NCBI GenBank assembly: GCA_003695825.1
Contig: RFHK01000153.1
Location: 1-34,751, forward strand
From: Gammaproteobacteria bacterium
GTDB taxonomy: Bacteria > Pseudomonadota > Gammaproteobacteria > Thiohalobacterales > Thiohalobacteraceae
Length of the DNA stretch: 34,751 nucleotides
Direction of reading: 5' to 3'
This document shows, in pieces, positions 172 to 19,370 of the stretch. The notes under the pieces are model-generated. The model was not told where the DNA came from, ran no database searches, and saw only the letters and a program-made list of their open reading frames with translations. The position numbers and the translations under genes were made by a program. How positions within the stretch are numbered: position 1 is the first letter of the stretch; the number at the start of each line of letters is the position of its first letter.

Positions 172-188
172 TGGCATGCGAGTTGCAT
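172..188 (+). promoter_or_regulatory. Putative sigma-54 (-24/-12) promoter of the cytochrome cluster
   Basis: The sequence TGGCAT-gcgag-TTGCAT has GG at 173-174 and GC at 185-186, exactly ten bases apart, which is the invariant sigma-54 signature (consensus TGGCAC-N5-TTGCW). Only the last base of the -24 box differs. Transcription would start near 198-200 and leave an 85-90 nt leader before the ATG at 286. The upstream stretch is clearly less GC-rich than the rest of the window. It holds a small inverted repeat (GGCA-aaaa-TGCC, 79-90), a direct repeat CTGACA (101-106, 114-119) and a repeated octamer GGAATTGC (9-16, 192-199). Any of these could bind an enhancer-binding protein, but none is a recognised operator. 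No other gene is visible in 1-285. Confidence 0.6.
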
Positions 189-285
189 TTGGGAATTGCG
201 GCACATGGCCTGTGACAGGAGGTCCGGGCCGGGATGAACACCATCCGGATGAGAACTGGATGACGCGTTGGAGGAGGAACCGAAA

Positions 286-3200
286 ATGCAACGAACCGGT
301 AGACCCAGGAAAAGGCGGCTCGTGGCTGCGGCCGCCCTGGGGATGGCCGCCGCACTGGCCCTCCCTGCCGTGCAGGCGGATCCCCACAAGCACCACACCA
401 AGACCGAGAACAAGCACAAGGGCCTGGTCGCCAAGCCCAAGAACGCCTTCAACATCCTGATGAACTACGAGCTCGGCATGCACTGCACCGGGTTCGAGTT
501 CTCCTACTGCTGCGTACTGCCGCCCTACAACTCGATCCTGGCGCAGGTGGTGCGCACCGAGAAGGTGGGCGACACGCCCCAGCTGCTCGAGGCCGATCCC
601 AACGTGGGACTCGACTTCCTCGGCCGGCCCACGGTGGTGCGTGACACCCAGCTCGACCAGAACGGCAACTTCAAGAAATACGTCATCAAGTACTGGCACG
701 AGGCCCAGCCGCGCAACGACGGGCGCGGGGCGCCGCAGGTGGATCCGCTCATCAGCCTGGTGGAGGGCAATTCCCTGCTGATGTGGAACACCCGCTTCGA
801 TGCCGCGGCCACGGACAGCAACAATGCCCTGGTGACCGGGACCATCGACGGGGCGACCAACGTGGTGGTGGGCGACGGCGACTATGCCGATCCCGAGGAC
901 AACTACGCCAACGCCTGGCTCAACCACCTCTACATCTACGCCGACCTGGAAGGCAGCAACCCCACCGGCGGCAGTGCCGAGAAGGACAAGATCCGCCTCG
1001 GCCTGCGCAACCTGACGGCCAACGTGCAGTTCAGCACCGTCCTGCCGGACAACTCGGGACCCGCCTTCCATCCCATGGGGCCGGGCGCGGTCAACGGGCT
1101 CAACAACGTGCTGACCTTCTCGGGTGACAAGGGCACGGTGGTCTTCACCCAGATGAAGGTGCTCGAGAACCTGCCCATCATGCTCACCTCGCCCCGCATC
1201 TGGGAGGCCCTGGGTCTGCCCCTGACGCCGTTCGAGGACACCATCAACTTCTTCGGCGATCCCGGGGCCATCGACGAGGGCTCCATCCGCCCCTACGTGG
1301 CGATGAAGGCGCAGCTCTTCGAGTACGACCCCAACGCCCCGGATGGGGCCGGCAAGCCGGTGCTCGACAACGGCAACCCGGTGATCGGTTTCGGCACCGC
1401 GCCGATCGACATCCCCAACTGCGAGCGCTGCCATGCGCTGGGTGACGGGGCCTCGGTCAACAGCGCCAACAACGGCCACCCGGAAATCGCCGCCATGGTG
1501 CAGGAGGAGATCGATTTCTGGAACGCCTACTACAACGTGGACGTGGCCGCCGGGGACTCCGACTGGTATTCGCGCCTCAAGGCCGCTGCCATCAGCATGC
1601 TGGCGTTGCATGACCAGCAGCATGGCACCTCGTTCACGGCCAACTTCCCGGCCACTGGCATCGACGCCAACGGGAACCTCACCGGGGATACCAGCGACCG
1701 TCCGCAGAACACGCGCCTGGGACACCAGACGGTGCTCTGCCAGCGCTGCCACGCCGACAACGTGGTTGCAGCCGTCAAGTCGGCCAACCGGGCCGACACC
1801 GGAAAGCTCATCCCGCCGCTCACCGAGGCCATCCACAACAACCACAAGGACGTGGTGTTCGACGATGCGCACGGGCGCAGCGGTTCCTGCCAGGGTTGCC
1901 ACCCGGCGCACCGTTCGGACGGCGACATGGCGGGCTACCCGATCACCGAGCTCGGGCTCAACGCCTATGCCGGTTCGGACAACCGGGATGCCGCCGGGGG
2001 TTGCTACGTGGGCCGCGACGCCCATTCCAACCGCAACCGCAACGCCGACTGTCCCACGCCGAGCCACCTCAATGCCGTCGGCAAGTGGCTGGTCCAGAAC
2101 GTCTCCCTCGACACGGGGACGGACAAGGGCATCTGGTGCACCAACTGCCACACCCAGCTCAGCCAGGAGCTGTGGAAGAAGGAGGACTGCCCGGACCTGG
2201 TGCACGGCAAGTGCAACGTCAACCCGCGCGGCGGGGCCACCCTGGCCGACGTGGCCGCGGCCGTGGGCGTGACCGAGGCACAGGCCATCGCCTGGCTGGA
2301 TCCCAAGACCAACGACGACATGGCGGCGATCTGGAAGCCGGACCCGGGCCTGTGCCAGTACGTCGGCTCGCTCTTCGGCGGTCCCGTGGACTGGGCCCAG
2401 GACGCCAACGTGGCGACGATCGAGGTGGCCCTGCCGGGCCAGGCCTGCAGCACGGGGGCCAGCGCCCCGGGCCCGGACTGCAACGGGGACGGTGCGCCGG
2501 ACTTCCAGATCTGCGGTACCTACGACGTGGACCACGACTTCAGCGTCAACATCCTGGACTTCTGCACCACGGACCAGTGCGTGGCCGCCGCCCAGGCCAA
2601 GCTGTCGGGGTCCTCGGCCGTGCCGGTGCCCTTCTCGGCAGCCACCGACGGGCGTGACCACTGGCTGGCCGCCGGAGAGCCCCACTGCGCCGACTGCCAC
2701 ACGCCGCCGTTCGTGGAGCAGAGCGGTAACATCAACGCCTTCCCGCCGTTCAACTACCCGCGCAAGGCGTCGTTGTTCCGCTACTCGCGCGGCCACCAGG
2801 ACATCACCTGCCAGGGCTGCCACGAGTCGATCCACGGGCTCTATCCCGTCACGCCCAACGTGGATACCACGACCTATGCCCAGGCGGCGAGCATGAACCC
2901 GGACGGCAGCCACGGTCCGCTCAAGTGCGGTGCCTGCCATGCCTATGACCCGCAGACCGGGGTCATGGCCTGGGCGGACAAGCTGGCCTACAATGGCAAG
3001 CTGATCCGCACCGACTTCGACGCGGCCGTCAGTTGGGCGCACACCTTCACCGACGAGGCCGATCCGCTGAAGGACGTCTGCACCAACTGCCACAGCGACA
3101 AGTCGGCGAAGGTGTCCTCCACCGACCACGAGTGGCTCGAGCATGCCGACAAGGGACGCGTCGGGCGCCGGATCATGGACAAGGTGGAGATGCGCCTGCT

Positions 3201-3393
3201 CGGGCACGTGGCGGGCGATCCCGCGGCCGAGAACCCGTTGACCACCGTGTGTACCTCCTGCCATTCCGATCGCAGCAGCCAGGTCTCCTGCGGCAATCGC
3301 AAGTGGAAGGAGCACATCTCGCGGGGTCGCGTGGCCTACTCGGTCTGGGAGTACGTCTCCACCCAGCTGACCGGTTCCACCTGCGGGTGGTGA
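286..3393 (+). CDS. Exported nine-haem c-type cytochrome (large paralogue)
   Basis: The product is 1035 aa. I chose the ATG at 286 over the upstream in-frame TTG at 268 because GGAGGAGGAA (270-279) is an ideally placed ribosome site. Residues 1-31 form a signal peptide (RKRR, alanine/leucine core, AVQA cut site). Nine CXXCH haem sites begin at Cys379, 485, 535, 618, 801, 842, 881, 932 and 989. About 370 residues before the first haem form a haem-free domain containing Cys67, Cys75 and Cys76 in a block shared with the second cytochrome of the cluster. Residues 731-758 look like calcium-binding acidic loops. The last two haems lie in a tandem repeat. The family suggests periplasmic or extracellular electron transfer. 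I do not recognise it as a named cytochrome, and its partner and substrate are unknown. Confidence 0.93.
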   Translation: MQRTGRPRKRRLVAAAALGMAAALALPAVQADPHKHHTKTENKHKGLVAKPKNAFNILMNYELGMHCTGFEFSYCCVLPPYNSILAQVVRTEKVGDTPQLLEADPNVGLDFLGRPTVVRDTQLDQNGNFKKYVIKYWHEAQPRNDGRGAPQVDPLISLVEGNSLLMWNTRFDAAATDSNNALVTGTIDGATNVVVGDGDYADPEDNYANAWLNHLYIYADLEGSNPTGGSAEKDKIRLGLRNLTANVQFSTVLPDNSGPAFHPMGPGAVNGLNNVLTFSGDKGTVVFTQMKVLENLPIMLTSPRIWEALGLPLTPFEDTINFFGDPGAIDEGSIRPYVAMKAQLFEYDPNAPDGAGKPVLDNGNPVIGFGTAPIDIPNCERCHALGDGASVNSANNGHPEIAAMVQEEIDFWNAYYNVDVAAGDSDWYSRLKAAAISMLALHDQQHGTSFTANFPATGIDANGNLTGDTSDRPQNTRLGHQTVLCQRCHADNVVAAVKSANRADTGKLIPPLTEAIHNNHKDVVFDDAHGRSGSCQGCHPAHRSDGDMAGYPITELGLNAYAGSDNRDAAGGCYVGRDAHSNRNRNADCPTPSHLNAVGKWLVQNVSLDTGTDKGIWCTNCHTQLSQELWKKEDCPDLVHGKCNVNPRGGATLADVAAAVGVTEAQAIAWLDPKTNDDMAAIWKPDPGLCQYVGSLFGGPVDWAQDANVATIEVALPGQACSTGASAPGPDCNGDGAPDFQICGTYDVDHDFSVNILDFCTTDQCVAAAQAKLSGSSAVPVPFSAATDGRDHWLAAGEPHCADCHTPPFVEQSGNINAFPPFNYPRKASLFRYSRGHQDITCQGCHESIHGLYPVTPNVDTTTYAQAASMNPDGSHGPLKCGACHAYDPQTGVMAWADKLAYNGKLIRTDFDAAVSWAHTFTDEADPLKDVCTNCHSDKSAKVSSTDHEWLEHADKGRVGRRIMDKVEMRLLGHVAGDPAAENPLTTVCTSCHSDRSSQVSCGNRKWKEHISRGRVAYSVWEYVSTQLTGSTCGW

Positions 3394-3401
3394 TCAGGCA
3401 G

Positions 3402-3427
3402 GCGGGCCCGGCTTCGGCCGGGCCCGC
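3402..3427 (+). other. Perfect 11-bp hairpin with a UUCG tetraloop
   Basis: The arms GCGGGCCCGGC (3402-3412) and GCCGGGCCCGC (3417-3427) are exactly complementary around TTCG. In RNA this gives the exceptionally stable C(UUCG)G tetraloop. It lies nine bases after the stop of the nine-haem cytochrome. No T-run follows, so it is not a typical intrinsic terminator. A role in protecting the 3' end of the first gene's message, or in partial attenuation so that cytochrome exceeds chaperone, is inference. Confidence 0.7.
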
Positions 3428-3450
3428 GCATCGCCTGGTCTCCGGTTCCC

Positions 3451-3476
3451 GGCCGACCGCACGCGGTGCGGCGGCC
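3451..3476 (+). other. Second GC-rich hairpin ahead of the parvulin gene
   Basis: The inner arms CCGCAC and GTGCGG (3457-3462, 3466-3471) close a GCG loop. The outer arms GGCCG and CGGCC (3451-3455, 3472-3476) extend the stem past a single bulged A at 3456. The structure ends eight bases before the ribosome site GGGAGT (3484-3489) of the next gene, so it could affect translation or RNA processing. No U-tract follows. Confidence 0.5.
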
Positions 3477-3496
3477 TACGTCCGGGAGTACAGAAC

Positions 3497-4912
3497 ATGA
3501 AAGGCATCATCGGAAGAATGGGATCCTGGGCCGGCGCGGCCTGCCTGGCGCTGGGGCTCGTCACGGCCCCGTCTCTCCGCGCCGCGACGGCCCGCGAACC
3601 GGCCGACACCATCGCCCGCGTGGGCGACCAGATCATCCGTTTCAGCGACATCGAGCGCATGATCAACAGCTCCACCATGGTCGGGATCGGCCTGCCGCCG
3701 CCCGGCACGCGGGAGCGCAACACCCTGCGCATCACGCTGCTCGACAAGGCCATCAGCGCCAACCTGCTCTATCTCGACGCCCTGGACCAGAAGGTCGACC
3801 AGCGTCCCGCCTTCCGGCGCGACGTCCAGCGCTTCGCCGAGGCGATGATGCGCTCGATCTACCGGCAGAAGTACCTGATCGGCGAGATCCGGGTCTCGGA
3901 CGAGGAAGTGCTGGACTACTTCCACAAGCACATGGACAAGGACACGCCCTTCACCTCGACGCTCGGTGAGGCCATCCGTGCGCGCCTGCGCAAGGCGCGC
4001 TACCTGGAGCGCCAGCGCCAGTTGCGCCGCCTGATCCGGGCCGGCGTCGAGGTCTCCATCGAGATGGACCAGCTCGATCCGGCCGGGGACGATGCACGTC
4101 CCGACGACGCCGTGGTGGCGAGGTATGCATCGGACGGCAAGGTGACCTGGAAGGCGTTGCGCGCCGCCCTGGCCGGCAAGAAAGCCGACGACGTCTCCGC
4201 GCGCGTGCGCATCCTCGACCGACTGATCGACGACCGCCTGCTGCTCATGCATGCCCGGGCCGCGGGCATCGAGAAAGACCCGCTCTACCGGGCGCGGGTC
4301 GACGAGTTCCGCAAGGTGCGGCTGATCAACCTCCATCGCACCGAGCTGGTTCAGCGCATGCAGCCCACCGACGCGGAGGTGCGGGCCTTCTACCGCGAAC
4401 ACCGCAAGGAGATCATGCTGCCCGAGGCACGCAAGATCCAGATGGTGGTGCTGCGCACCCGCAAGGAAGCCGAGGAGATCAAGCGGCGGATCGAGTCCGG
4501 TGAGCTGACCCTCTACCAGGCGGCTCGGGACTATTCCATCGACCCCAATGCCAAGAAGACGCTGGGCGAGATGGGCTGGGTGGCCAAGGGCACGGGCTTT
4601 CCCGAACTGGACCGCTTCACCTTCTCGCTGGAGAAAGGCGTGCTCGGCGGGCCGGTGCATTCACCGGCCGGCTGGCACCTGGTCAAGGTGCTCGACATCC
4701 GCCCGGCGGCCTTCGACGACATCGAGGATCCGGCCACCTTCCGCAAGGCGCGCCGGTTGCTGATCCATCGCCGGCTGGCGGCGTACGTCGTCGAGCTCCG
4801 CAAGAAGAAATACCCCGTGACCGTCTACGAGGATCGGTTGCGCCGGTTCCTCGAAGAGGATCTGCAGAAGGGCAAGCAGCAGGAGGCGACCGGCGCGGCC
4901 GCCGCCTCCTGA
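3497..4912 (+). CDS. Exported parvulin/SurA-like foldase with an altered active site
   Basis: The product is 471 aa with a signal peptide (residues 1 to about 30). A SurA/PpiC-type helical region follows (about 38-190), then a second similar helical segment (about 215-310), and one parvulin-type domain (about 310-400) ending in the family motif GWHLVKV with His394. The first catalytic histidine of parvulins (the 'HIL' strand) appears as Gln315 in 'RKIQMVV', so prolyl isomerase activity may be weak or lost. A lysine/glutamate-rich tail follows. It sits between two homologous multihaem cytochromes, which suggests a dedicated periplasmic chaperone for these long, cysteine-rich chains; that job is inferred from context. 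ATG 3497 follows GGGAGT at a normal distance. Confidence 0.85.
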   Translation: MKGIIGRMGSWAGAACLALGLVTAPSLRAATAREPADTIARVGDQIIRFSDIERMINSSTMVGIGLPPPGTRERNTLRITLLDKAISANLLYLDALDQKVDQRPAFRRDVQRFAEAMMRSIYRQKYLIGEIRVSDEEVLDYFHKHMDKDTPFTSTLGEAIRARLRKARYLERQRQLRRLIRAGVEVSIEMDQLDPAGDDARPDDAVVARYASDGKVTWKALRAALAGKKADDVSARVRILDRLIDDRLLLMHARAAGIEKDPLYRARVDEFRKVRLINLHRTELVQRMQPTDAEVRAFYREHRKEIMLPEARKIQMVVLRTRKEAEEIKRRIESGELTLYQAARDYSIDPNAKKTLGEMGWVAKGTGFPELDRFTFSLEKGVLGGPVHSPAGWHLVKVLDIRPAAFDDIEDPATFRKARRLLIHRRLAAYVVELRKKKYPVTVYEDRLRRFLEEDLQKGKQQEATGAAAAS

Positions 4913-4924
4913 CGCGGCCCGCCC

Positions 4925-7285
4925 ATGGGGTACGTGCTGTACCAGCCCTCCATGCCCGGGCGCCGGCGGTGGGTGCCGTGCCTGTTGCTCGCCGCCTGGG
5001 CCGTGCTCGCGTCCGCACCGGCCGGCGCCGGCCTGGGTGACTGGCTGCGCGAGAAGCTCGATGACGAGCGTCCTCCGCCGCGCGACTACGTCATCCTCAT
5101 CAACTACGAGCTCGGCATGCACTGTACCGGGTTCGATTTCTCCTACTGCTGCGTGCTGCCGCCGTACAACTCCATCCTCGCTCAGGTGGTACGCACCGAG
5201 CGCCATGCCGACCGGCCCCGGCTGCTGGCGGCCGATCCGCGGGATCCGACCGTGCTGGTGGATGGCAAGCGCCGTTTTCGCCTGGCCTACACCCACGAGG
5301 ACCCGGCCGGCGTACCCAACACCTACTCGGCCACCAAGAAACTGGACTACTGGGGCCTGGGGTACCGGGGCGGGCAGCTCCCCAACCACGAGTTCGCCCA
5401 CCTCTACGTCTACGACCCGGCCGACGGGGGCAGCCATCCCCGCACCACGGCGGACCGCAAGAAGCGCCACATCGGGCTGGACACCCCGATCCACATCAAC
5501 GAAGGGCCCACCGGGCAGCACGTTGGCAAAGGGTACCTGCGCTACAGCGGCCGGGAAGGCACGGTGGTCTTCACCGACTCCCCGGTGATGGAAAACGTGC
5601 CCATCCATCTCACCGGGCCGGGGATCTGGGAGGCCCTGGGGTTGCCGCTGACCCCGTTCAACGACCGTTTCACCTCGCTGATCACCGTGCAGGAGCGGCA
5701 GGTGCAGCCCTTCCAGCGCGCCGTGGTGACCCTGGTGGACGCGGACACGGGTGAGCCGGTGATCGATTCCAGTGGCCAGGTGGTGCGCTACTTCGGCGTC
5801 AATCCCATCGACATCCCCAATTGCGCGCGTTGCCACGCCGGCCCGGAGGCCAACGGGGAGAAGTACCGCAAGTACCAGGAGGAATACGCGTTCTGGCGCG
5901 GGATCCGCGGCGCCAGCGACTGGTACGCCCGCCTCAAGGCGGCCGCCATCTCCATCCTGGAGATCCACGACGACCGCAACGGCACGAATTTCCTGGCCCA
6001 CTGGCCGGCCGGGCCGGGCAGCCACACGCGGCTGGGACGCGACCCGGTGGTGTGCCAGGACTGCCATGCCGACAACATCATCGGGCGCCTCGTCTCCCGG
6101 CACGTGGGCGAGATGCGCCCGGAGGACGTGCGCCCCGGTGCGCCCTCCCTGCCGCCGCCGGAGCACCTGATCTCGCCGCTCAGCGAGGCCATCCACAAGG
6201 TCCACCTGCGCGCCCGGCCCCTGGGGGACGCCGAGGGCCTGGCGGGCAGTTGCCAGGCCTGCCATCCCGGTCATCGCAGCAGCCGCACCCTGCAGGACTT
6301 TCCGCTCGACGAGGAAGGGCGCTACACCTACCGCAAGGGCGACATCCGCGGCACCCGCGGCTGCTTCACGCAGCGCGACGCGCACGGCAATCCCGACTTC
6401 GGGGGCGAGGACCTGGCACGTCCCGACCCGCTCACTCCCGTGGGACGTTACCTGCTGCTCGAGGTGATGCAGGACGACCGCCGGGGCCGGCGCGGGCTCT
6501 ATTGCACCCACTGTCACAACCTGCTCTCGCGCGCCCTCTACCGGGCGGACCACCTGGCCTCGCCGTTCGATCCCGAGGCGGGGCGCAGCCTGCGTGCCCT
6601 GCCGCTCGAGCGGCTCGCCCAGGCACTCGGCATGGATCTCCACAGGCTCCTGCACTTCGCGCTCGATCCCCGCGTGCCCGCACGGGGTCCGGACACCCGC
6701 AGCGGCGTCTACCACGTCTGGGATCGTACCGGGCAGCGCGTGGCCGATCTCGCCCGCATCCGGGTCGATGCCGAGGGCCGGACCCTGCGCACGCCGCCGG
6801 ACGAGGACGGGGACCGTTCCCTGGTCCTGCTCGATCCCGACCCGGAGGCCAAGGGTGGGGTGCCGCTCTCCTACGACGAGGCCACGCACGGGCGTGACTA
6901 TTGGCTGGCACCGGGAGAGCCCCACTGCGCCGACTGCCATGCGCCGCCCTTCGTGGAGGATCTCGGCGGTGCCAACTTCCCCATCGACCAGCCCGGCAAG
7001 TACGCGCTCATGCGCCATTCGCGCGGCCATCGCGGCATCACCTGCCAGGGGTGTCACGAGTCCACCCACGGCCTCTATCCCGTCAACCCGGCCGTGGACG
7101 TGACCGGGTACCAGCAGGCGGCCCAGCTCAACCCGGACGGTTCCCACGGCCCGGTCAAGTGCCAGGCCTGCCACCGCGTCAATGCGCAGGGGGTGCCGAC
7201 CCGCCACCCGGACTACATCGCCCGTGACAGCGTCTACTGGAAGGACTATGGCAAGGCGGTGGAGTTGCAACATGAACTACGCTAG
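4925..7285 (+). CDS. Exported seven-haem c-type cytochrome (small paralogue)
   Basis: The product is 786 aa from ATG 4925. ATG 4952 is an alternative that gives a cleaner signal peptide (MPGRRRW, leucine/alanine core, PAGA); neither has a clear ribosome site. CXXCH motifs begin at Cys300, 377, 443, 527, 668, 707 and 746. Their order and context match the first seven haems of the 1035-aa paralogue, including EPHCADCH-PPFVE and ITCQGCHES-HGLYPV. The N-terminal block with Cys67, Cys75 and Cys76 is almost identical to the one there. This copy lacks the acidic calcium-loop insert and the two C-terminal repeat haems. The gene starts 12 nt after the parvulin gene and overlaps the following lipoprotein gene by 14 nt, so it is cotranscribed. 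It is probably an electron-transfer partner or subunit of the larger cytochrome (inference). Confidence 0.92.
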   Translation: MGYVLYQPSMPGRRRWVPCLLLAAWAVLASAPAGAGLGDWLREKLDDERPPPRDYVILINYELGMHCTGFDFSYCCVLPPYNSILAQVVRTERHADRPRLLAADPRDPTVLVDGKRRFRLAYTHEDPAGVPNTYSATKKLDYWGLGYRGGQLPNHEFAHLYVYDPADGGSHPRTTADRKKRHIGLDTPIHINEGPTGQHVGKGYLRYSGREGTVVFTDSPVMENVPIHLTGPGIWEALGLPLTPFNDRFTSLITVQERQVQPFQRAVVTLVDADTGEPVIDSSGQVVRYFGVNPIDIPNCARCHAGPEANGEKYRKYQEEYAFWRGIRGASDWYARLKAAAISILEIHDDRNGTNFLAHWPAGPGSHTRLGRDPVVCQDCHADNIIGRLVSRHVGEMRPEDVRPGAPSLPPPEHLISPLSEAIHKVHLRARPLGDAEGLAGSCQACHPGHRSSRTLQDFPLDEEGRYTYRKGDIRGTRGCFTQRDAHGNPDFGGEDLARPDPLTPVGRYLLLEVMQDDRRGRRGLYCTHCHNLLSRALYRADHLASPFDPEAGRSLRALPLERLAQALGMDLHRLLHFALDPRVPARGPDTRSGVYHVWDRTGQRVADLARIRVDAEGRTLRTPPDEDGDRSLVLLDPDPEAKGGVPLSYDEATHGRDYWLAPGEPHCADCHAPPFVEDLGGANFPIDQPGKYALMRHSRGHRGITCQGCHESTHGLYPVNPAVDVTGYQQAAQLNPDGSHGPVKCQACHRVNAQGVPTRHPDYIARDSVYWKDYGKAVELQHELR

Positions 7286-7757
7286 CGAAACTTCCCTGCA
7301 CGTGGACGCGGCGCGCCGGCGTCGCATCACCGGGGGCGTGCTCGGGTTGCTGTGCCTCGCGGCGGCCGGTTGCGTCCATGCCCCGGGAACCCCGCCGGGT
7401 ATCTCGGCGCCGGTGCACCGGTTCTCCGAGGTGCCCCTGCGGGACTTGCGTGCCGACCCGCGGCGCTGGATCGGTACCCGCTTCGAGGGCCGTCTCAAGT
7501 ACTACCGGCTCTATCACGGCCCCGAGCGGGCACGGCCCGGCAGCCGGGAGCAGGTGGTGCGCGGCAAGACCCATTTCACGGCCCGGCCGCTCGAGCAGAT
7601 GAACTACGTGATCCAGGTGCTGGTGACCCCGGCCCAGGAGGCCTGGCTGCGCGCCCATCACGTCCAGCGCCAGGACACCCTCTGGGCTCGCCTGGAGTTC
7701 ACCGGCCTCGCCCCGGGTGAGGCCTTGGCGTTTCGACTGCTGGAGGTGCATCGATGA
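7272..7757 (+). CDS. Small lipoprotein of unknown function in the cytochrome cluster
   Basis: The product is 161 aa. ATG 7272 is chosen because GGTGGAG (7258-7264) lies 7 nt upstream, inside the end of the cytochrome gene. The N-terminus has RRRR at 15-18, a hydrophobic core and the lipobox AAGC with Cys34. The -3 position is Ala rather than the usual Leu, so lipidation is likely but not certain. The mature part (about 50-161) alternates short strands, for example WIGTRFEGRLKYYRLY and YVIQVLVTP, and could be a small beta-barrel such as an OB fold, which is inference only. No haem motif is present and Cys34 is the only mature cysteine. I do not recognise the family. Its 14-nt and 4-nt overlaps with its neighbours tie it to cytochrome export or anchoring. 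Confidence 0.72.
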   Translation: MNYASETSLHVDAARRRRITGGVLGLLCLAAAGCVHAPGTPPGISAPVHRFSEVPLRDLRADPRRWIGTRFEGRLKYYRLYHGPERARPGSREQVVRGKTHFTARPLEQMNYVIQVLVTPAQEAWLRAHHVQRQDTLWARLEFTGLAPGEALAFRLLEVHR

Positions 7758-8269
7758 ATCGGACCAGGGTGCTGCGTGGCGGATGGCTGCTGCTGGCGCT
7801 GTGCGTCACGGTCGCCGGGGCGGCCCCCCGCCGTCCGGAATTCGCCCTGCGCGACCTGCAGGGCAAGGTCCATCGTCTCTCCGACTACCGGGGCAAGTGG
7901 GTGATCGTCAACTACTGGGCGACTTCCTGTCCCCCCTGCCGGCGGGAGATCCCGGAACTGAGCCGCTTCCACGACGCGCACAAGGACCGGGATGCGGTGG
8001 TCCTGGGACTCGACCACGAGGAGATGCCGGACCTCTGGCTAAAGGAATTCGTCCGCCAGATGAAGCCTTCCTACCCGATCCTCAAGGCCGGGAGCGCCAC
8101 CCTGACCCCCTTCGGCCCGGTCCGGGTCCTGCCGACGACGTTCATCGTGCGGCCGGACGGCACGCTGCTCGGTCGACACCAGGGGATGGTCACGGCCGAG
8201 GCGCTGGAGCGCTTCCTCGCCGCCCAGGAGAAGGCGGCGGCGAAGGCCAAGACGAAGAAAGACCCTTGA
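7754..8269 (+). CDS. TlpA/ResA-like periplasmic thioredoxin
   Basis: The product is 171 aa with a signal peptide or anchor at 1-24, then a thioredoxin fold of the TlpA/AhpC-TSA type. The active site is Cys59-Pro-Pro-Cys62 within NYWATSCPPCRRE, and the cis-proline loop is VLPTTFIV. The residue before Cys59 is Ser, where this family usually has Trp. ResA- and CcmG-type members keep apocytochrome CXXCH cysteines reduced for haem attachment. Its position as the last gene after two multihaem cytochromes, overlapping the lipoprotein gene by 4 nt (ATGA), fits that role; alternatively it may handle the many non-haem cysteines of those cytochromes. A lysine/alanine-rich tail closes the protein. Confidence 0.85.
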   Translation: MNRTRVLRGGWLLLALCVTVAGAAPRRPEFALRDLQGKVHRLSDYRGKWVIVNYWATSCPPCRREIPELSRFHDAHKDRDAVVLGLDHEEMPDLWLKEFVRQMKPSYPILKAGSATLTPFGPVRVLPTTFIVRPDGTLLGRHQGMVTAEALERFLAAQEKAAAKAKTKKDP

Positions 8270-14365: not shown

Positions 14366-17122
<2,757 letters not shown>

Positions 17123-17126
17123 GGCC

Positions 17127-19370
17127 ATGCAGGAGCACGAGGTCGAAAGGCACGAGGAGGCAGCCGCGGCGGGTACGGTACCGCCTGCGGCCGCCTGGCC
17201 GAGCGCCTGGCGCGAGGCCCTGGAAGACGTCCGGAGGACGGCCCGGCTGCGCCTCGAGCCGCGCATCCAGCAGTTGTTCGAACAGGCCGAGCTCGGGTTG
17301 ATCGACCTGGCGGCCCGCACCGAGGACGAGGCCGCCCAGGAGCGCATCTTCACGGGCATGGCCGCCCTGCTGGGACGCCGGGATGCCTGGCTTCGCCTTT
17401 GCCTCGAGGGCATCGACCAGGGATTCGATGCCTTCGCTGCAGCCGCCGGGGACGGCGCAGTGCAGGGGACGGCCCTGGCGAACGGCATGGCAGCCCATGG
17501 CGTACCGGCGCGTAACCTCGTCACGCGCACCGTCGAGCGCTACCGTGCCTCCCTGCACGGCATACGCACCCGGTTGGCCGTGATGCACGGTGGGCGCCCG
17601 ATCCGGGACGAGGAGATCCCGGCCGGCCCCGTGCAACTCGTGGGCCTCTGGCAACGCCTGCTCGCCGAACTCCCGCTCACGCGTCGCCTGAGCATGGTGC
17701 TCTACGTCCTCTACGACCGCCATGTCCTGCGCACGTTGACCGGTTTCTACGACGAGTACGAGCGGCGCCTCGCCCAGGCCGGGCTGTTGCCGCACCTGCG
17801 CCCGGGCGGAGCGGCCGGCGGGGAAGGGGCTCCGCAGGCCGCCGTGCCGCCCAGCCTCGACCGGCTGCAGGCCCCGGAGCTGGCGCCCTCGGAACGCCAC
17901 GCACTGCTCTCGACCCTGCTGGCCCGCTCGGAGGCTCCCGAACTGCCGGTCGCGGTCGCCGCCCCGCCCGCCGTCGCCGGGGCCCCGGCGCCCGCGGCAT
18001 CCGAGGTCCTGTCTCCCACCGGTGACGAACTCTTCGCAGGGGAGGCCGAGGAGGGCCTGCAGGGGGTCGTCGACCGGGTGCGCCGGGAAGGCCCGGCCAC
18101 GGCCGCCGGGACCGGGGAGGCGCCGCAGGCGATCCTGGCGGCCGAACGCGGGGCCCTGTGCGCGGCCCTGGTCGACGCCGGCCGTCCCCTGGCAGGGGTC
18201 GACGCCGCGCTCCTCGGGTTGGCCGACCGGCTGTTCGATTGCCTGTGCGAGGACGCGACCCTCGATCCCGAGGCGCGCGGGATCCTCGCCCGGCTCTACC
18301 TGCCCTATCTCCAGGCGATACTGGACGAGGTCTCCCTGCTGGCCCGGGAGGAACACCCGGCCCATCGGCTGCTCAACCTGCTCGTCGCCGCCGCGCGGCG
18401 CTGGGGCGCACGCCAGGCGCAGGAAGGGAACCTCGCACCCCTCCTGAACGAGGCCGTGCAGCGTCTGCGCTCGGAGGAGAGGCTCCTGCCGACCGTCTTC
18501 GAGGAGGTGTTCGAAGGCATCGCCTCCCGGGTCCGGGAACTGGAGTACCGCAGCGCCGCCGTCGCCCAGCGCACCCTCGAGGCCCTCGAGGGACAGCGCC
18601 GCCTGGAAATCGCCCGGCATACCGCCCGGGCACACCTCGCGCGCCTGCTCGAGGGCAGCCGTCCTCCATCCGGGTCCGAGTATTTCTTCACCCGCATCTG
18701 GGCCGATGCCTTCACCCTCATCCTGCTGCGCGAGGCCGAGGGCGAGCGAAGCAACCCCTGGCAGCAGGCCACCCGGGTCCTGAAAGGGATCCTCTGGACC
18801 CTGGAGCCCCGGGAGGCGGACGAGGCCGCACACGAGGACCGCGAAGCCGTCAACACGCTCATCGCGGCGGGCCTGCGTGACTTGTCCCGGTACGGGCTGC
18901 GTGACTTCGAGGGGTGGTTCGACCGGATCCGGGCCTGGCAGGAGGCACTGGCACAGGAACCCGGGGTACCCCGCGTGGCCTCCCAGGACCTGGTCGCCCT
19001 GCTCGAGGAAGACGAGGCGGAGTCGCAACCCCGGGAGGACGCGGAGGCCTGCCTGCCCGGGGAGGCGGGGGCACGCATCGGTGTCCTGCAGCCCGGTGCG
19101 CTGGTGGAGATCACGCGGGAGGAGGGGACGCGGCGGCGCTGCCTGTTGCACGTCGACCCGGCGGGAGGCGGCTACCAGTTCGCCGACGTGCTGGGGACAA
19201 GGGCCGAGGCCTTCCGTCCGGCGGCGCTGGCCGCCGCCCTCGAAGCGGGCCGGGTGCGCATCCTCAGCCGCGACGGTCGTCTGCCCGCCTTCCTGGACCA
19301 TGCGCTCGTGCGGCTGCACGGGGAAGGGGCGGGGAAGGAAGTGCTACAGGAGGGGGAAGATGCGGGATAA
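17127..19370 (+). CDS. DUF1631 family protein
   Basis: The product is 747 aa, largely helical, with no signal peptide, so it is probably cytoplasmic. An N-terminal helical region (about 20-230) is followed by a proline/alanine-rich stretch (about 230-320), a second helical domain (about 330-640), and a C-terminal beta-rich segment (RRCLLHVDPAGGGYQFADVLG) typical of DUF1631 proteins. The biochemical function is unknown, and some databases mislabel the family as thymidine phosphorylase. It follows ligA by 4 nt and overlaps the PilZ gene by 11 nt. The tight coupling to a c-di-GMP-binding domain protein suggests the two act together in c-di-GMP-controlled behaviour (inference). Confidence 0.78.
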   Translation: MQEHEVERHEEAAAAGTVPPAAAWPSAWREALEDVRRTARLRLEPRIQQLFEQAELGLIDLAARTEDEAAQERIFTGMAALLGRRDAWLRLCLEGIDQGFDAFAAAAGDGAVQGTALANGMAAHGVPARNLVTRTVERYRASLHGIRTRLAVMHGGRPIRDEEIPAGPVQLVGLWQRLLAELPLTRRLSMVLYVLYDRHVLRTLTGFYDEYERRLAQAGLLPHLRPGGAAGGEGAPQAAVPPSLDRLQAPELAPSERHALLSTLLARSEAPELPVAVAAPPAVAGAPAPAASEVLSPTGDELFAGEAEEGLQGVVDRVRREGPATAAGTGEAPQAILAAERGALCAALVDAGRPLAGVDAALLGLADRLFDCLCEDATLDPEARGILARLYLPYLQAILDEVSLLAREEHPAHRLLNLLVAAARRWGARQAQEGNLAPLLNEAVQRLRSEERLLPTVFEEVFEGIASRVRELEYRSAAVAQRTLEALEGQRRLEIARHTARAHLARLLEGSRPPSGSEYFFTRIWADAFTLILLREAEGERSNPWQQATRVLKGILWTLEPREADEAAHEDREAVNTLIAAGLRDLSRYGLRDFEGWFDRIRAWQEALAQEPGVPRVASQDLVALLEEDEAESQPREDAEACLPGEAGARIGVLQPGALVEITREEGTRRRCLLHVDPAGGGYQFADVLGTRAEAFRPAALAAALEAGRVRILSRDGRLPAFLDHALVRLHGEGAGKEVLQEGEDAG

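Follow-up and report, generated by a model that had tools for sequence, protein, structure and literature searches.

A conserved five-gene cluster pairs two multihaem cytochromes with a foldase and a thioredoxin and may encode a periplasmic oxidoreductase

Multihaem c-type cytochromes occur in several described systems that resemble the locus studied here. In Wolinella and Shewanella, the MccA/SirA sulfite reductases join a multihaem cytochrome to a TlpA-type thioredoxin and, in some lineages, to quinol-linked NrfCD-type partners; the Wolinella cluster presumably also has a peptidyl-prolyl isomerase. The Uet pathway of cathode oxidisers (Tenderiales, Gallionella) keeps cytochromes and a peptidyl-prolyl isomerase, UetB, in one locus (PMC10734462), and the PCC3 and Mtr/MtoAB conduits provide exported multihaem cytochromes in lithotrophic Proteobacteria. 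Cytochrome c553o proteins (MCA0421, MCA0423 and paralogues in Methylococcus capsulatus) are located at the cell surface (PMC4831470), and disruption of MCA0421 lowers anodic current in this organism (PMC6281684). Here we analyse a cluster of five genes, for a nine-haem cytochrome (P0001), a foldase (P0002), a seven-haem paralogue (P0003), a lipoprotein (P0004) and a TlpA-like protein (P0005), carried by a sulfur-oxidiser-type gammaproteobacterium of the Thiohalobacteraceae (Table 1). The stretch analysed (34,751 bases), termed the window, comprises contig C179 in full. We put at roughly 0.45 the probability that the cluster encodes a two-cytochrome periplasmic multihaem oxidoreductase and the helpers that mature it, with a sulfur compound as the probable substrate.

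Table 1 Promoter-like site and genes of the cluster, in window positions
Feature	Position	Strand	Details
Sigma-54-type promoter-like site TGGCATGCGAGTTGCA	172–187	+	~100 nt upstream of first gene
P0001, nine-haem c-type cytochrome, Sec signal peptide	286–3393	+	9 CxxCH
P0002, exported parvulin-type peptidyl-prolyl isomerase (PPIC-type rotamase)	3497–4912	+	Pfam Rotamase_2 8e-18, Rotamase 5e-16
P0003, seven-haem c-type cytochrome, Sec signal peptide, family core	4925–7285	+	7 CxxCH
P0004, small lipoprotein	7272–7757	+	Lipobox LAAAGC
P0005, exported TlpA/ResA-like thiol-disulfide oxidoreductase	7754–8269	+	CPPC active site

The genes are tightly packed on one strand (286–8269) and, by inspection, export signals are present in all five products. 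An initial annotation had described five exported proteins in one tight run, with nine and seven haems in the two cytochromes, and we recovered every element of that description. P0001 starts at ATG 286 in an open reading frame that opens at TTG 268, and is 44% identical to P0003. The P0004 gene, read from its in-frame ATG at 7272, overlaps that of P0003 by 14 nt; its product matched no Pfam or NCBIfam family, and its homologues (35–44% identity) were found in loci L029–L034 only, so that the lipoprotein is restricted to the five-gene form and its nearest relatives. P0005 matched AhpC-TSA (2e-20) and a ResA-type NCBIfam model (2e-26), the latter yet under that model's cut-off. A hairpin 3' of the last gene was no better than those in shuffled sequences.

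The five-gene arrangement is a conserved unit, beyond chance. One scan of ~85,000 genomes, with the two paralogues as queries and a conserved N-terminal peptide as its pattern, gave 164 confirmed loci, of which 80 were kept; family members without this peptide would be missed. A genome-neighbourhood search for the five-gene order, proposed in the initial annotation, found it kept in L032, L033 and L029 (in L029 TlpA was not detected), with fragments in L030 and L031. Nine-haem orthologues in L029, L032 and L033 are 69–75% identical. The nine-haem paralogue occurs only in the five-gene form, whereas the seven-haem protein is found without it in many lineages. In the tree, the nine-haem proteins group together and apart from the clade of their seven-haem partners, and the split is deep; the paralogues are therefore old. 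Where the flanking DNA sufficed, 70 of 75 loci had a foldase gene no further than 600 nt from the cytochrome gene, and 46 of 61 had a TlpA-like gene within 2.6 kb. This linkage extends over Gammaproteobacteria, Betaproteobacteria, Nitrospinota and Nitrospirota, and cytochrome and helper recur together in methane, sulfur and iron oxidisers.

Exactly seven CxxCH motifs were present in all 66 seven-haem proteins aligned (alignment A2, which also provides the cysteine numbering). In the architecture typified by P0003, the first ~250 residues are haem-free and hold NYELGMHCTGFDFSYCCVLPPYNS, and the seven CxxCH follow; the near-invariant motif of this N-terminal domain reads NYELGMHCTGFDF[ST]YCC[VI]LPPYNS. 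Non-haem cysteines 24, 32, 33 and 437 are conserved at 98–100%, with no further non-haem cysteine in 64 of the 66 proteins, and there are ~106 residues per haem. Two further CxxCH repeats extend the C terminus of the nine-haem protein, which also has a cysteine-rich insert. AlphaFold2 models reached a pTM of 0.82 and a pLDDT of 77 for P0003, and 0.76 and 70 for P0001. Neither model had a Foldseek match in the PDB at E ≤ 0.001, in a run without a positive control, on models that lack haem and with a method that performs poorly on haem proteins; among PDB sequences, a profile search returned short haem-motif matches only. Neither Pfam nor NCBIfam had a dedicated family that the seven-haem proteins matched, and P0001 and P0003 matched neither the NrfA nor the HAO families of these databases. 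A close characterised homologue, which by the initial annotation would have spoken against a new system, was not among the results.

Linkage to foldase and TlpA genes, the four invariant cysteines and the respiratory and dsr neighbours described below all argue for a periplasmic oxidoreductase. So does the comparable genetic logic documented for SirA/MccA, in which a multihaem enzyme goes with a TlpA-type thioredoxin and an NrfCD-type quinol module. The seven-haem protein would be the conserved catalytic or electron-entry core, with the nine-haem paralogue as a second subunit or as an electron carrier that partners it, and the lipoprotein would probably tether both cytochromes to the outer membrane. 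Folding of these long, haem-poor cytochromes may be assisted by the parvulin, while the TlpA-like protein would hold cysteines 24, 32, 33 and 437 in the right redox state, either as disulfides or as a metal or substrate site. Electrons may be exchanged with the respiratory chain via c-type carriers, which by lineage would be dihaem c4, NapC/NirT-type or DsrJ-type trihaem proteins, and a periplasmic sulfur compound appears the likeliest class of substrate. What was observed is gene content, conservation of genes and motifs, co-occurrence and neighbours; from these we infer catalysis, substrate, location, direction of electron flow and what the helpers do. We also offer, as a more doubtful proposal, that the family could be a new class of periplasmic multihaem enzyme in at least three phyla, in which the GMHC...YCC and fourth-cysteine cluster beside a haem would form an active site that binds a metal or sulfur. 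This site would be an analogue, of separate origin, of the haem-copper site in MccA, and in sulfur-, methane- and iron-oxidisers the enzyme would deliver electrons to, or draw them from, the quinone pool, c4 or an oxidase.

Membership of the MccA/SirA family proper was considered in the light of these motifs. The accessory logic is similar, given the TlpA-like SirH and the NrfCD-type SirCD/MccCD of that system and the DsrOP/NrfD-type genes beside some members of the window family. The haems differ in number (seven or nine versus eight), however, and CH did not occur outside CxxCH in any of 70 proteins (66 seven-haem, 4 nine-haem), so that the defining atypical haem site, CX15CH or CX12NKGCH, is absent; on this ground the cluster was not filed under MccA/SirA. 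No homology was detected by PDB sequence or fold, within the limited sensitivity of Foldseek, and the cluster has no dedicated haem lyase gene. Of the readings weighed here we give this one the least credence.

In other lineages, genes of respiratory and sulfur metabolism neighbour the family. In methanotroph (Methylobacter-type) loci such as L079 and L139, the cytochrome gene is preceded by those for subunits II and I of a CuA-type oxidase and for a dihaem c, and a NapC/NirT tetrahaem protein and a dihaem c are close by in Sideroxydans, Gallionellaceae and Sedimenticola. Three Nitrospinota loci (L036, L046 and L052) have the gene within a dsr locus, with DsrK (570 bits against an equivalog cut-off of 400), DsrC, CobB/DsrN-like, DsrO/DsrP-like and trihaem proteins; two others (L035 and L037) have it beside DsrE2 and TauE/SafE. 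Downstream of the gene in Gallionellaceae L080 come a PhsA/SoeA-type molybdoenzyme and its Fe-S subunit. We probed the window's own genome (2.1 Mb, 209 contigs, 93%-complete) one protein family at a time; it encodes DsrA, scoring above the curated cut-off, with DsrB adjoining, one NapC/NirT-family protein and haem-copper oxidases, and pMMO was not found in it. The statement in the initial annotation that a CymA-like quinol oxidase is missing therefore holds within the cluster only, as the genome has this NapC/NirT protein and homologous clusters elsewhere carry NapC near the cytochrome gene. DsrA is also present in G062, G084 and G102, further carriers from a class-wide draw, and a Methylobacter with SoxABCDXY, SQR and FccAB has been reported (PMC13322032). 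Between the DsrP-like and seven-haem genes of L036, L044, L046 and L052 (for example, L046:7777–8715) we observed a conserved exported protein of ~320 residues that belongs to no family, the L036 copy having no Pfam match.

An enzyme for a nitrogen compound (hydroxylamine, nitrite or NO) at low oxygen would account for NapC, NapA (L082) or an octahaem HAO-like protein (L026, L082 and L107) near some loci, and for the many carriers that live at oxic–anoxic boundaries. We consider this improbable: such neighbours are few and come with their own partners, the Nitrospinota and Gallionellaceae loci point to sulfur, and both window cytochromes lack the NrfA and HAO matches that were sought. NapA beside L082, being a single case, was rejected as evidence of nitrate respiration. 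The octahaem cytochromes (L026:2783–4303, L082:523–1983 and L107:5930–7474) are distantly hydrazine dehydrogenase/HAO-like and lie near the seven-haem gene.

Several observations weigh against a periplasmic sulfur oxidoreductase. There is no homology to any characterised enzyme and no substrate-specific signature. The family is present without DsrA in the pmo-carrying methanotrophs G185 and G188 and in G189, so the reaction has no fixed link to the Dsr pathway, and the dsr association was read from carriers of the family alone. The five-gene form in L029, L032 and L033 showed no conserved electron-transfer partner adjacent. The cysteine motif is among the least certain parts of the models (pLDDT below 50 at residues 24–26), and two ordinary structural disulfides could account for the four cysteines. 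Copper ATPases that neighbour several loci are confounded by adjacent CuA oxidases; we dropped them as evidence for a copper site, as they are often beside such an oxidase, distant or on the other strand. Finally, in Shewanella the TlpA-like sirH was contrasted with essential sirEF, which means that TlpA may be dispensable.

The only traceable homologues of the window family, and distant ones, came from searches of Methylococcales. These proteins have ~1000–1430 residues and mostly 8–9 CxxCH, with a PKD domain in the full-length GMHC-bearing one tested (L135), and very probably belong to the cytochrome c553o group; the label c553o-like rests on size, haem count, PKD domain and lineage, not on identity to a named locus. 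Profile alignment with hhalign gave 99.4% probability (E 5e-22, 463 columns), with the haem motifs, the GMHC cysteine of a shared GMHC...LPP motif and the fourth cysteine aligning, but not the YCC pair (32 and 33). The two groups occupy separate branches of the tree, P0001 and P0003 had no PKD match, and in c553o-like loci we saw neither a foldase nor a TlpA that matched the window's. Orthology with c553o was rejected on the distant clade and the absence of a foldase nearby.

From this kinship comes the chief rival reading, a live one though on balance unlikely. The cytochromes would be secreted, or tethered by the lipoprotein to the external side of the outer membrane, and would exchange electrons with solids or partner cells, which MCA0421 appears to do. 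The aligned haems would fit such a surface carrier, as would the cell-surface location of c553o, the loss of anodic current on MCA0421 disruption and the occurrence of the family in iron-oxidiser genera (L080 and L094). The homology is distant, however, and c553o-like proteins differ in their PKD domain and in lacking the foldase and TlpA neighbours; furthermore, the cysteine pair 32/33 is unique to the window family and suggests a function beyond electron carriage, and no MtrB/PioB-type porin (PF11854) was found in the window's genome, other barrel types not having been searched. Two further observations concern the wider c553o-like group. On contig C118 of the window's genome, L028:1175–3262 encodes a lipoprotein-type multihaem cytochrome of this group (GFNDLGMHCADLDYSVF...), with at least six haems and cut by the contig end, and the Methylococcales genome G238 (contig C1) has about a dozen c553o-like genes in several clusters, an unusually large expansion.

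The initial annotation had weighed a dedicated periplasmic oxidoreductase against a filament-forming or surface-bound multihaem carrier, and had mentioned foldases beside wire-forming cytochromes. In the filament reading, either cytochrome or both would assemble into a wire outside the cell, aided by the foldase. One documented relative of that association exists, in that UetB belongs to the Uet pathway, but a foldase alone does not point to a filament, and the cluster has none of the Uet-type genes for tetrahaem UetA, trihaem UetDEG, undecahaem UetJ, porin UetC or NHL proteins. In the PDB no entry matched by sequence or by fold, nanowire cytochromes of the OmcS/OmcE/OmcZ type included, with Foldseek being weak on haem proteins modelled in haem-free form. 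We favour the oxidoreductase over the filament because of the ~106 residues per haem, the large (250-residue) haem-free domain with its invariant cysteine motif and the quinone-, c4- and oxidase-linked neighbours elsewhere; the filament gained no positive evidence here and is left as a very unlikely reading. The further claim that the locus is not a standard Mtr or porin–cytochrome conduit agrees with our results: there is no porin in the cluster, none of MtrB/PioB type in the 93%-complete genome and no match to MtrC or MtrA. Membership of nanowire or Mtr systems was accordingly rejected. PCC3 cytochromes, unlike those of the window, have far more haems (medians 34 and 21) and low complexity (PMC5566968).

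The promoter-like site TGGCATGCGAGTTGCA is the sole exact match to TGGCAYGNNNNTTGCW in the window (0.02 expected from shuffles) and the sole strong sigma-54-like site; its first base, 172, is exactly where the initial annotation had begun the cluster. A sigma-54 activator may turn on the window operon. L029 has a sigma-54-like site, TGGCACAGGTTTTGCT, at 4071, before its nine-haem gene. None was found in L032, L033 or before other family members (83 other loci checked); we rejected a family-wide site on this basis, and sigma-54 regulation looks particular to the window and L029. Directly upstream of the cytochrome–foldase unit, L029 (274–3715) encodes a PAS histidine kinase and a sigma-54-activating response regulator, and kinase or regulator genes of similar kind recur near other family loci.

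As the window fills its contig, DNA upstream of base 1 is not visible, and statements on missing neighbours of the cluster hold for the downstream side. The downstream genes identified are ordinary (carbohydrate kinase, smc, zipA, penicillin-binding protein and helicase); this stretch also encodes a DUF1631 protein of 776 residues and unknown function (17040–19370). The open-access literature searched held no account of the five-gene cluster, although subscription journals may hold one. Extracellular electron transfer in Methylobacter was the subject of a June 2026 study, which concerns a different, porin-decahaem locus and whose text has no match for 'peptidyl'.

The family is widespread, its loci from this one scan including methanotrophs, tubeworm symbionts, Sedimenticola, Gallionellaceae and Nitrospinota. 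Its carriers are ecologically central, yet it matched no dedicated Pfam or NCBIfam family and has no solved relative, and we found no assigned role. The question can be tested in cultured carriers, for example Methylobacter marinus A45, and the choice between enzyme and surface carrier decides whether these bacteria have an unrecognised reaction or an unrecognised route of extracellular electron transfer.

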